Shown: piece after piece, positions 1,955-5,216 of the stretch | Layout: each line of letters starts with the position of its first letter | Position numbering within the stretch: the first letter of the stretch is position 1 | Source: Cryobacterium sp. PH31-AA6 | GTDB taxonomy: Bacteria; Actinomycetota; Actinomycetes; Actinomycetales; Microbacteriaceae | Direction of reading: 5' to 3' | Length of the DNA: 64,000 bases | Assembly (NCBI RefSeq): GCF_030063195.1 | Contig: NZ_JASISS010000001.1 | Location: 62,001 to 126,000 of the forward strand | Position numbers and translations under genes: made by a program | Notes under the pieces: model-generated | What the model saw: only the letters and a program-made list of their open reading frames with translations | The model's database searches: none | What the model was told of the DNA's origin: nothing

Positions 1955-2960
1955 CCGCGAACGTTACGACGTCATCCCGATCGGCATCACCCGCGACGGG
2001 GCCTTCGTGCTGGAGGTGGACGACCCGGCACGGTTCGCGCTCAACGCGGACGAACTGCCGGAGGTCTTCGACAACGGCAGCCGGGTTCGCTGGCCGGAAA
2101 GCACCCTCAGCCGGCAGCTGACCGTCACCGACGGCGCCGGTCTCGGTTCGCGCTCGCTCGGCAACGTCGACCTCGTTTTCCCGATCCTGCACGGACCGTT
2201 CGGCGAGGACGGCACCATCCAGGGGCTGCTCGAGCTCACCGGTCTGCCCTATGTCGGCTCCGGAGTGCTCGCATCGGCGCTCGGGATGGACAAGCACTTC
2301 ACCAAGACGGTCTTCCAGCAGGCGTCCCTGCCGGTCGCGCCGTGGCGCACGATCACGGCGGATGACTGGGCGGAGGCTCCCGGGATGGCCCACGCGGCGA
2401 TCGAGGAACTCGGGCTTCCCGTGTTCGTCAAGCCCGCCAGGGCCGGGTCCAGCGTCGGGGTCAGCAAGGTATCGACGAGGGACCAGCTGCCGGAGGCGAT
2501 GAGGGTGGCCCTCGCCGAGGACGAGAAGGTGCTGATCGAGGCCGCCCTCGTCGGGCGCGAACTCGAGATCGCGGTTCTGCAGGGTCGCCCAGGCGAACCG
2601 ACCAGGGCATCCGTCGCCGGCGAGGTACTCGTCAGCGGTCGCGACTTCTACGACTTCGCCGCCAAATATCTGGGCGCCGCCGGCATCGACCTGATCTGCC
2701 CCGCCGATCTCACGGCCGCCGAACTCGCCGAGATGCAAAGGCTCGCCATTCGCGCGTTCGACGCCATCGACGGGGCCGGGCTCGCCAGGGTGGACTTCTT
2801 CCACACCGAGGGCGGCTGGGTGATCAACGAGATCAACACCATGCCGGGTTTCACCCCGATCTCGATGTTCCCCAGTTGTTGGCTCGCCAGCGGCTACACC
2901 TACCCGCAGCTGATCGACGAGCTGATCGAGGTGGCGGTTAGCCGCACGGCGAAGCGGTAA
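1857..2960 (+). CDS. ddl: D-alanine--D-alanine ligase
   Basis: ATP-grasp ligase that joins two D-alanines for peptidoglycan precursor synthesis; 367 residues, normal length. The N-terminal L-F-G-G-R-S-S-E-H motif, H-G-P-F-G-E-D-G, the ATP-binding K-P-A-R-A-G-S-S-V-G segment and the C-terminal E-I-N-T-M-P-G-F-T motif are all visible. The start is the ATG at 1857 with an A/G-rich Shine-Dalgarno (aaagga) upstream; it lies 98 nt inside the gpsA frame. The gene ends 15 nt before the convergent DUF3515 gene, with a perfect hairpin between them. Confidence 0.96.
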   Translation: MTHKLTVALLFGGRSSEHSISCATAGGVLAAIDRERYDVIPIGITRDGAFVLEVDDPARFALNADELPEVFDNGSRVRWPESTLSRQLTVTDGAGLGSRSLGNVDLVFPILHGPFGEDGTIQGLLELTGLPYVGSGVLASALGMDKHFTKTVFQQASLPVAPWRTITADDWAEAPGMAHAAIEELGLPVFVKPARAGSSVGVSKVSTRDQLPEAMRVALAEDEKVLIEAALVGRELEIAVLQGRPGEPTRASVAGEVLVSGRDFYDFAAKYLGAAGIDLICPADLTAAELAEMQRLAIRAFDAIDGAGLARVDFFHTEGGWVINEINTMPGFTPISMFPSCWLASGYTYPQLIDELIEVAVSRTAKR

Positions 2961-2967
2961 CCGGCGC

Positions 2968-2993
2968 GCCGTGACCTATGGGGCGGTCACGGC
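2968..2993. terminator. bidirectional hairpin between ddl and the DUF3515 gene
   Basis: Perfect 9-bp arms (2968-2976 and 2985-2993) enclose an 8-nt loop. It lies between two convergent genes and covers the DUF3515 stop codon. There is no clear T-run, which is common for actinobacterial terminators. Confidence 0.6.
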
Positions 2994-3491
2994 CGTGCCG
3001 CCGTCGGTGGGGATGGTGAGGTCCTCGACCCCGAGGCACTGCCGGGTGGCCGGGATGGCGGACACCGCCTGGGCCAGGTCGACCAGTACGGTCGAACCGC
3101 TGACCGTGCCGGAGTCGATCACCAGCTCGGTCGCCGGGTTGCGACCGTAGGTCGTGTACCGGTAGAGCGGCGCCTCCGAGTCGTCCTCGATCCAGTCGAT
3201 GCCGTTCACGTTGAGGCAGGGAAGGGTTGTCGGCACCGGTACGGCGACCCCGCAGTGCAGCAGCACCGCGGCGGGGGTGCCCCAGGCCCCGGTGGACTGC
3301 GCGTTCGTCTCGCGCTCCGGTAACGCCCCGACGGCGGTGGGCAGGCGCACGATCAGATCGGCGCAGGTCGGATTCGCGGCATCCTTCGACGGCTCGAGCG
3401 GCACGATCGCGGTGCAGCCGGTGAGGAGCACGGTGCCGACGACGAGCGTGATCGCGAGGCCGGCGCGGAGGAGGCGGGAACGGGGGGTCAT
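2976..3491 (-). CDS. DUF3515 family lipoprotein
   Basis: A 171-residue secreted protein. It has a short basic N-terminus, a hydrophobic core and a lipobox L-L-T-G-C at residues 22-26, so it should be lipid-anchored outside the membrane. The body carries several Cys residues and a C-L-x-V-N-G-I-x-W segment typical of DUF3515 proteins, which occur next to thiL in actinobacteria. The function is unknown. The start is the ATG at 3491, chosen because a TAGCCT -10 element ends 7 nt before it. The gene is transcribed divergently from thiL across a 24-bp gap and converges on ddl. Confidence 0.82.
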   Translation of the reverse strand: MTPRSRLLRAGLAITLVVGTVLLTGCTAIVPLEPSKDAANPTCADLIVRLPTAVGALPERETNAQSTGAWGTPAAVLLHCGVAVPVPTTLPCLNVNGIDWIEDDSEAPLYRYTTYGRNPATELVIDSGTVSGSTVLVDLAQAVSAIPATRQCLGVEDLTIPTDGGTAVTAP

Positions 3492-3498
3492 TGCATTC

Positions 3499-3508
3499 AG
3501 GCTACCGT
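3499..3508. promoter_or_regulatory. overlapping back-to-back -10 elements for thiL and DUF3515
   Basis: The plus-strand hexamer TACCGT (3503-3508) ends 7 nt before the thiL ATG, and the minus-strand hexamer TAGCCT (3504-3499) ends 7 nt before the DUF3515 ATG. They share the central TA. Both genes are therefore predicted to be leaderless and to compete for RNA polymerase. Based on spacing and the TAnnnT consensus. Confidence 0.65.
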
Positions 3509-3515
3509 TTGACGT

Positions 3516-4523
3516 ATGACGATTGCTGCGGCCGCACCGCTTCCCTCCGGCCAGACACTCGCCGACCTCAGCGAGGGTGAGGTGCTTGCCCGGATCTTCC
3601 CGCGCCTGCCCGGCTCTGCCGCCCAGCTGATCGGACCGGGCGACGACGCCGCCGTGCTGCGGGCCCCGGACGGCCGCTATGTGGTGACCACGGACATGAT
3701 GATCCAGGGTCCTGACTTTCGTCTGGCCTGGTCGACCCCGCACGACCTCGGCTGGAAGGCAGCCGCGACGAACCTGTCGGATGTCGCCGCCATGGGTGCA
3801 CGCCCCACCGCCCTGGTCGTCGCCATCGCCGCGCCGCCCTCCACGCCGATCTGGGTGATCGAGGGGATCGCAGACGGACTCAGGGACGGCTGCGAGGCGC
3901 TGGCCCCCGGCTGCGGCGTCGTCGGCGGCGACCTGTCCGCCTCCGACGCCCTCACGCTGGCCGTCACGGCCTTCGGCGACCTGGAGGGGCGCGAGCCCGT
4001 GTTGCGCTCCGGGGCGCGCCCAGGCGACGTCGTGGCGCTTGCCGGGCGGCTCGGAGACGCCGGGTGGGGGCTCAGCCTGCTGTTCCGGCTCGGTGTGGAC
4101 GCCGACGGGGTGCCGGATGCCGCGCTCGCCGCTGCACTGCGGCAGCAGCATCCGCGCGAGATCGAAGCCCAGCTCACTCCGGAGCCGCCGATCGACCGCG
4201 GCCCGGCCGCCGCGGTCGCCGGGGCGACCGCGATGCTCGACGTGTCGGACGGCCTCGCCATCGACGCCGGGCGACTCGCCCGGGCCAGCGGCGTGGGGAT
4301 CGATTTCGACGGGGCGACGCTCGGCGACCACGTCGAGCGTGCCCTCGGCGGCGGCGAGGACCACGGACTGCTGGCAACGTTTCCCGCCGGGACGACGCTG
4401 CCGGAAGGCTTCCGCCGGCTCGGTGTCGTCACGGCCGAGGCGGGCATGGTGTTCGTCGACGGGACCGCGCACACCCAGGGCGGCTGGGACCCGTACCGCG
4501 GTTGGGACGGCGCGGCGGGCTGA
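3516..4523 (+). CDS. thiL: thiamine-monophosphate kinase
   Basis: Phosphorylates thiamine monophosphate to thiamine pyrophosphate with ATP; PurM/ThiL fold. The N-terminal G-P-G-D-D-A-A-V motif (Mg-ATP binding), T-T-D-M, a W-K-A-A-A-T-N-L-S-D-V-A-A-M-G-A segment and the L-D-V-S-D-G-L-A motif are characteristic. At 335 residues the length is normal. The start is the ATG at 3516; no Shine-Dalgarno is seen, but a TACCGT hexamer ends 7 nt upstream, so the mRNA is probably leaderless. It converges on rsmD, with a large hairpin between the two genes. Confidence 0.93.
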   Translation: MTIAAAAPLPSGQTLADLSEGEVLARIFPRLPGSAAQLIGPGDDAAVLRAPDGRYVVTTDMMIQGPDFRLAWSTPHDLGWKAAATNLSDVAAMGARPTALVVAIAAPPSTPIWVIEGIADGLRDGCEALAPGCGVVGGDLSASDALTLAVTAFGDLEGREPVLRSGARPGDVVALAGRLGDAGWGLSLLFRLGVDADGVPDAALAAALRQQHPREIEAQLTPEPPIDRGPAAAVAGATAMLDVSDGLAIDAGRLARASGVGIDFDGATLGDHVERALGGGEDHGLLATFPAGTTLPEGFRRLGVVTAEAGMVFVDGTAHTQGGWDPYRGWDGAAG

Positions 4524-4543
4524 GCGCCCCGCCGGTCGATGAG

Positions 4544-4603
4544 CGCGCCCGTTTCCGCACCCCGCGCCCGCCCCCGCGGTAGCGGGCTGCGGAAACGGGC
4601 GCG
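4544..4603. terminator. large bidirectional hairpin between thiL and rsmD
   Basis: Perfect 16-bp arms (4544-4559 and 4588-4603) surround a G/C-rich spacer that can form its own inner stem. It sits in the gap between convergent genes and is the natural terminator for both. No T-run is visible on either side. Confidence 0.7.
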
Positions 4604-4625
4604 GCGGCGGGTGCGCGACCGCGAA

Positions 4626-5216
4626 TCAGGCCGGCGGCAGGTCCTGGGCGGAGACGGGAACGGCGTACCAGACGGTGGTGTCGCCGTAGTCCTTGCGCCG
4701 GTCGCTCTCGAGGCCGGGGCCCCAGGTCGGTTCGGGGGAGCGGGAACTGCGCTCGACGACCACAAGGGCGTCTTCATCGAGGAGCGGGGCGAGCGCGGCC
4801 AGGTTGTGCCCGAGTTCGATCTCCGGCAGGTCGTAGGGCGGGTCAAGGAAGACGAGGTCGAAGCCCTCCCCGGTGGCGGCCAGGAACGACTGGACGGCCT
4901 GCGACGTCACCTTGATCTTCGGTGTGTCCTTCTTCGGCGCGGCCCGCAGCACCGCGTCCGTGTTCTTGCGGCACAGCTGCGCGGCCCCGAAGCTGTTCTC
5001 GACCAGGGTGACGATGCGGGCGCCCCGGCTGGCTGCCTCGAGGCCGAGCGCACCCGACCCCGCGTAGAGGTCGAGTACCCGGGCGCCGCGCACGATGTCG
5101 CGGGCGTCGAGGGCGGAGAAGATCGCTTCGCGCACCCTGTCGCTGGTGGGACGGGTGCCGGTCTTGGGTACAGCCAGGGGCAGGGAACCGGCAAAACCGG
5201 CGACAATTCGCGTCAT
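4626..5216 (-). CDS. rsmD: 16S rRNA (guanine(966)-N(2))-methyltransferase
   Basis: SAM-dependent methyltransferase acting on G966 (E. coli numbering) of 16S rRNA; 196 residues. Visible motifs are the N-terminal T-R-P-T-S-D-R-V-R-E-A-I-F, the SAM-binding V-L-D-L-Y-A-G-S-G-A-L-G-L-E-A, and the catalytic L-D-P-P-Y. The start is the ATG at 5216 just before R-I-V-A-G. A TAGGCT hexamer on the minus strand (5232-5227) lies 10 nt upstream, implying a very short or absent leader. The gene is divergent from recG across 72 bp. Confidence 0.94.
   Translation of the reverse strand: MTRIVAGFAGSLPLAVPKTGTRPTSDRVREAIFSALDARDIVRGARVLDLYAGSGALGLEAASRGARIVTLVENSFGAAQLCRKNTDAVLRAAPKKDTPKIKVTSQAVQSFLAATGEGFDLVFLDPPYDLPEIELGHNLAALAPLLDEDALVVVERSSRSPEPTWGPGLESDRRKDYGDTTVWYAVPVSAQDLPPA

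Follow-up and report, generated by a model that had tools for sequence, protein, structure and literature searches.

Sequence evidence for a probable, strongly conserved bidirectional promoter with interlocked -10 elements between thiL and a DUF3515 lipoprotein gene in Microbacteriaceae

The thiL/DUF3515 gap and the leaderless signal of the genome

Can a gap of 24 bp between two divergent start codons serve as a promoter for both genes at once? In a 64,000-nucleotide stretch of Cryobacterium sp. PH31-AA6 (hereafter “the window”), thiL (thiamine-phosphate kinase, 335 aa, ATG start; 3516..4523, plus strand) and a DUF3515 lipoprotein gene (171 aa, ATG start at 3491-3489; 2976..3491, minus strand) are separated by positions 3492-3515. 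ThiL passed TIGR01379 (226.3 bits; cut-off 184.15) and scored slightly below the cut-off of NF004351 (316.1 bits; cut-off 324), while its neighbor passed the Pfam model for DUF3515 (PF12028; 62.3 bits, cut-off 27.6) and carries a lipobox-like LLTGC, as read by eye from the translation. A literature search on the name DUF3515, with most subscription papers outside its reach, returned nothing. On the plus strand the order is CAT (3489-3491), 7 nt, AGGC-TA-CCGT (3499-3508), 7 nt and ATG (3516-3518); the hexamer TACCGT (3503-3508, plus) precedes thiL and the hexamer TAGCCT (3504-3499, minus) precedes the DUF3515 gene, with the TA step at 3503-3504 common to both and the 10-bp core AGGCTACCGT (3499-3508) as their union. 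A preliminary description of the locus had given precisely this geometry (24-bp gap, hexamers 7 nt from both starts, shared TA), and it is exact. The opposed -10 elements overlap reciprocally, both here and in the family regions described below. For each gene the first T of TANNNT lies at a leaderless-type distance of about 12-13 nt before the start codon, inspection of both strands by eye found no Shine-Dalgarno sequence before either start, and either of the start positions predicted below would leave no space for a ribosome binding site.

To evaluate TAnnnT as a leaderless signal, 464 kb of the 3.68-Mb genome (the window plus 20 further stretches) were sampled and 383 genes called with a simple hexamer model; 731 ATG or GTG codons near gene starts were then compared with 5106 in-frame codons deep inside called genes. 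TAnnnT showed a sharp main peak at a spacing of 6 nt (49/731 near starts versus 4/5106 inside genes), with lower counts at 7 nt (8/731, thiL being one of the eight, versus 6/5106) and 8 nt (5/731 versus 2/5106). TAnnnT just upstream of a start codon is therefore a genuine promoter signal in this genome. The spacing of thiL and DUF3515, 7 nt in both cases, equals the mode of the genome plus one, and a one-nucleotide leader is accordingly possible for both transcripts: initiation 6 nt past the hexamer would leave one nucleotide of leader, and initiation 7 nt past it would be strictly leaderless. From the spacing, transcription is predicted to start at the A of the thiL ATG (3516, plus) and at the A of the DUF3515 ATG (3491, minus), or possibly 1 nt upstream in either case. 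The earlier proposal of leaderless promoters with an exact 7-nt spacing needs a qualification here, given a usual spacing of 6 and the possible 1-nt leader. Across the family these two genes are also mostly at spacing 7, although the leaderless peak of their own genome here is at 6.

Background matches alone would place two independent spacing-7 hexamers at one gene pair about once or twice in a million. In the whole 3.68-Mb genome, thiL/DUF3515 is the only place where this exact geometry is flanked by ATG on either side, and GGCTACCGT followed by ATG 3-12 nt downstream likewise has this one occurrence and none elsewhere in the genome. With genes ignored and spacings of 6-8 allowed, the bare motif was found twice in 464 kb against a mean of 1.0 in 20 simulated sets; since it is not rare in itself, the weight rests on its position at two real starts and on its conservation. 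Among 56 divergent called pairs in the 464 kb, five carried TAnnnT before each start, without a shared TA in any of the five; the simple gene caller overlooked thiL/DUF3515, however, and possibly other pairs. One divergent pair elsewhere in the window (46840, minus; 46888, plus) has TAnnnT 6 nt before both starts, with separate -10 elements and predicted starts 48 bp apart.

Conservation of the core across Microbacteriaceae

Regions upstream of thiL were collected from the genus (57 genomes searched, loci from 30), from the family (thiL in 287 of 299 genomes searched; 100 loci examined) and from named genomes (66 loci), and removal of near-identical duplicates left 157 unique regions. The 40 named loci ranking first by ThiL similarity (L034-L073) are all labeled Cryobacterium, in line with the genus of the window. 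A region passed if TAnnnT lay 5-9 nt before an in-frame thiL start and before a reverse start, with the TA shared. This geometry was found in 133 of the 157 regions (126 with a lipobox in the reverse frame and 7 more in a second pass without the lipobox filter) and in at least one locus of 62 of the 80 genera sampled, including several whose genomes measure 1.1-1.5 Mb. Cryobacterium and its near relatives contributed 47 of the 133 passing regions, so the remaining 86 were counted apart and a one-per-genus count was used. Both spacings were 6-8 nt in 131/133; as pairs (DUF3515, thiL) they were 7/7 in 75, 7/6 in 25, 8/7 in 12, 8/6 in 8 and other combinations in 13, with ATG or GTG as the start codon on either side. 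All 133 loci contained a DUF3515 match, to a profile built from DUF3515 sequences of the same loci. Conservation of both hexamers and their spacings across Microbacteriaceae, which the preliminary description had put forward as its own test, is thereby borne out (133/157 regions, 62/80 genera). Among the 157 regions, L096 does not belong to the family and L097 and L098 are truncated where their contigs end; the other 21 misses comprise ten loci in which the genes stand apart, three with DUF3515 and no shared core, and eight in which the sequence examined, only 511 bases each for L138, L151 and L161, gave no DUF3515 match (these three plus L081, L086, L182, L195 and L200).

The core is more uniform than the filter demands. 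It fits AnGnTAnCnT in 133/133 passing regions, and while the filter fixes the A, TA and T, it does not require the G at position 3 or the C at position 8, each of which is present in all 133. The variable positions are also skewed (G at position 2 in 128, C at position 4 in 114, C at position 7 in 118 and G at position 9 in 124, n = 133). At the 49 spacing-6 TAnnnT sites of this genome, by comparison, C stands at -9 in 14 and G at -14 in 20. In Mycobacterium tuberculosis, 49% of TANNNT promoters are reported, in the portion of the study available to us, to carry [G/C][A/G]N (SRN) directly before the hexamer, with no -35 motif and no base preference in the internal NNN (Cortes et al. 2013, PMC3898074). 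At thiL/DUF3515 the sharing of the TA places the SRN triplet of each promoter inside the hexamer of its partner: GGC (3500-3502, plus, G-14 at 3501) precedes TACCGT, and CGG in minus-strand reading (3505-3507, G-14 at 3506, opposite the invariant plus-strand C) precedes TAGCCT. Two interlocked SRN-TANNNT promoters yield the consensus A-S-R-N-T-A-N-Y-S-T, which AGGCTACCGT fits, and SRN was present before the plus hexamer in 133/133 regions and before the minus hexamer in 126/133 (the other 7 having A at -15). Through the shared TA, G-14 of one promoter is also C-9 of the other, and this putative double duty would lock the core.

As a one-way control we used the promoter of recG (5289, plus strand, in the window; the same gene in L034-L095), named from a reading of its translation; it is a single control promoter, few for such a comparison and perhaps atypical. 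It has a one-way TAnnnT in 57/57 named loci, at spacing 6 in 56, and mostly lacks G-14 (present in 6/57). Counted on one ThiL tree of the 54 species having both promoters, the three interior hexamer positions changed 7, 8 and 4 times at recG, as against 1, 0 and 0 times in the thiL hexamer (3503..3508) and 6, 0 and 0 times in the DUF3515 hexamer (3499..3504), and the recG -14 column changed 8 times. Columns outside the shared core changed 3-13 times, except for a single change at the base adjoining the outer A.

Ten loci (L075, L132, L147, L158, L180, L183, L184, L186, L190 and L198) have 41-180 bp between the predicted starts. A separate TAnnnT precedes each of the two genes there, 6-9 nt from the start codon, a property that is circular here in that these loci were recognized by it. 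The behavior of the outer bases is informative, as the thiL copy keeps the outer A of its partner in only 2/10 and the DUF3515 copy keeps the outer T of its partner in 2/10; a single operator should have remained intact, and the split pattern fits two superposed promoters. For the proposed double duty of G-14 and C-9, the evidence from separation is mixed: thiL keeps C-9 in 13/15 loci where it stands apart from or without DUF3515 (G-14 in 11/15); in DUF3515 hexamers that stand apart, C-9 persists in only 5/10 and G-14 in 7/10. The widest separation is that of L075 (Cryobacterium tepidiphilum), whose starts are 180 bp apart with a near-complete copy of the core on each side, as if duplicated by insertion. 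In the three loci that have DUF3515 and no shared core, TAnnnT was not found at thiL in L130, at DUF3515 in L169 or at either gene in L185.

Outside the family, the comparison covered 26 loci of other families in the same class, which were the best-scoring outside-family matches and no random sample. In 20 of them DUF3515 sits on the opposite strand, upstream of thiL, at 94-698 bp between the DUF3515 domain and the thiL match (37-101 bp in nine hand-picked family loci), and the shared geometry was found in 0/26. The idea that the pairing is conserved in actinobacteria holds only loosely for the gene order and, in these 26 loci, does not extend to the promoter geometry. In one outside locus (L210), a thiL GTG is preceded at 7 nt by AnnnTAnnnT, but a neighboring reverse start is missing. 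L221, the one locus checked for intervening genes, has a gene with an AsnC ligand-binding domain between DUF3515 and thiL; by eye, sequence similar to this gene is seen in several other outside-family loci. The simplest putative history is that the AsnC-domain gene was lost in an ancestor of Microbacteriaceae and the two promoters fused.

Proposed mechanism and rival explanations

Taking the conserved geometry together with the recG control and the separated loci, we consider a single bidirectional promoter, made of overlapping sigma-A -10 elements with their SRN triplets and yielding two leaderless or nearly leaderless mRNAs, to be the probable reading of the gap (probability roughly 0.85). 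Weighing against it are the 7-nt spacing, off the genomic mode of 6, and the loci L130, L169 and L185, which lack TAnnnT at one or both genes. The 24 bp would act as one promoter, with RNA polymerase carrying what is presumably the housekeeping sigma-A binding AGGCTACCGT in either orientation. In one orientation GGC-TACCGT would be read and thiL transcription would start at or beside its ATG; in the other, CGG-TAGCCT would be read and the DUF3515 lipoprotein transcript would start at or beside its own. Since neither side has a recognizable -35 element, each promoter would lean on its -10 hexamer and SRN triplet, and both mRNAs would be leaderless or carry about one nucleotide of leader. Two polymerases could not occupy the core together. 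The mutual exclusion that had been suggested for the two genes thus follows from the geometry at the level of polymerase binding; its extension to expression is a possibility only, as bidirectional promoters of Escherichia coli are described, in the available part of the source, as non-competing at basal activity (PMC12825309). Other candidates were tried for 2900-4700 and rejected: no classic -35/-10 promoter was found there, hexamers at the right distance having also been inspected, and there was no Rfam match to a structured RNA. In the window an open minus-strand frame continues upstream of the DUF3515 start, but spacers that differ by one base in length between genera ruled out coding constraint on the gap.

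The core might instead be an operator, bound by a regulator that controls one gene or both, with the promoters elsewhere or partly overlapping it, and a pseudo-palindrome conserved beyond the -10 element of recG is what such a site could look like. An operator would not, however, readily account for distances to both start codons of 6-8 nt in 131/133 regions when 5-9 were allowed, nor for the ten separated loci, where TAnnnT remains at each start and the outer base of the partner is lost in 8/10 per side; moreover, the form GGCTACCGT with a nearby ATG has no other sites in the genome. We regard this explanation as improbable. It is also hardly probable that only one direction is real, the second TAnnnT being a passenger of the overlap and the second gene being transcribed from inside the first. 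Within a single 10-bp core, a conserved promoter in one direction could in part preserve the other, and L130 and L169 do have TAnnnT at just one gene, but the outer A is part of one hexamer only and the outer T only of the other, and each gene of the ten separated loci (recognized by this very property) has a TAnnnT of its own at 6-9 nt.

A different issue is whether the bidirectional promoter has a regulatory purpose. The overlap may have arisen by compaction after loss of an intervening gene and be kept by the needs of both promoters, with no regulatory role; as this rivals a regulatory use of the promoter and leaves the mechanism itself as proposed, the likelihoods attached to the several readings need not sum to one. 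The AsnC-domain gene between the pair outside the family (one locus checked), the standing apart of the genes in at least ten loci and the non-competing basal activity reported for E. coli (PMC12825309, available part) speak for compaction, against which the arrangement has been retained in 62/80 genera sampled. We lean toward this reading with some reservation: the overlap most likely originated in compaction and is retained today because both promoters need it. A stronger proposal, which we consider doubtful, is that the interlocked SRN-TANNNT core works as an either-or device tying thiamine diphosphate synthesis to an envelope lipoprotein across Microbacteriaceae, with the G-14/C-9 lock explaining the constancy of the core. 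If true, the core would stay near-constant for as long as the genes stay adjacent.

Relation to known systems and implications

Bidirectional promoters of E. coli and Salmonella have been found by start mapping and given a working definition of starts 7-25 bp apart, most frequently 18 bp, with 10 and 23 bp also common (Warman et al. 2026, PMC12825309; Middlemiss et al. 2023, PMC10268837; both as far as their accessible text goes). As in those promoters, symmetry lets the -10 elements of the two strands overlap at thiL/DUF3515, where the predicted starts are 25 bp apart, at the edge of that definition; by arithmetic, a shared TA with a 6-nt spacing gives the published 23-bp class and a 7-nt spacing gives 25 bp. 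Unlike in the enterobacterial cases, both transcripts are predicted to be leaderless, with the promoter filling the intergenic gap, and a 10-bp core is near-fixed across a family; the starts here are predictions, whereas those were mapped. Leaderless TANNNT genes of actinobacteria have long been known (Zheng et al. 2011, PMC3160421), and the thiL/DUF3515 promoters resemble them, in what is accessible of that work and of PMC3898074, in having TANNNT about 12 nt before the start codon, no -35 element and an SRN triplet, which about half of the M. tuberculosis promoters have. They differ in that the middle NNN is described there as having little or no preference, while the interior of the thiL and DUF3515 hexamers is nearly fixed.

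Closely juxtaposed divergent promoters are called common in M. tuberculosis in the same partly available study (PMC3898074). The pair prpD/Rv1129c is likewise divergent and leaderless on both sides, but 120 bp separate its mapped starts (1254630 and 1254510), so that each gene has a -10 element to itself. Bidirectional transcription in Pyrococcus furiosus also involves a symmetric promoter element read in both directions; judging from the accessible part of the report (PMC6640164), it differs in being an archaeal TBP/TATA promoter that produces antisense transcripts and does not serve two protein genes, and the 5' leaders of P. furiosus are contrasted there with the mostly leaderless Haloferax. 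No published case of a shared -10 element with two leaderless transcripts was found, most subscription papers being beyond the search, and a search from which subscription papers were mostly absent found no transcription start sites for Microbacteriaceae, including Clavibacter (by title). The type of mechanism is thus known from E. coli, and the predicted double leaderlessness and the family-wide conservation are new.

The thiL/DUF3515 gap would accordingly represent a real and strongly conserved bidirectional promoter. From sequence alone, the pattern in 62 genera points to simultaneous selection on both directions, alongside the one-way recG promoter as a control and the ten natural separations. 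A promoter of 24 bp between start codons offers a very small setting in which the cost or use of competition between polymerases could be measured, and it links a gene for thiamine diphosphate, the vitamin B1 coenzyme, to the uncharacterized DUF3515 lipoprotein family.
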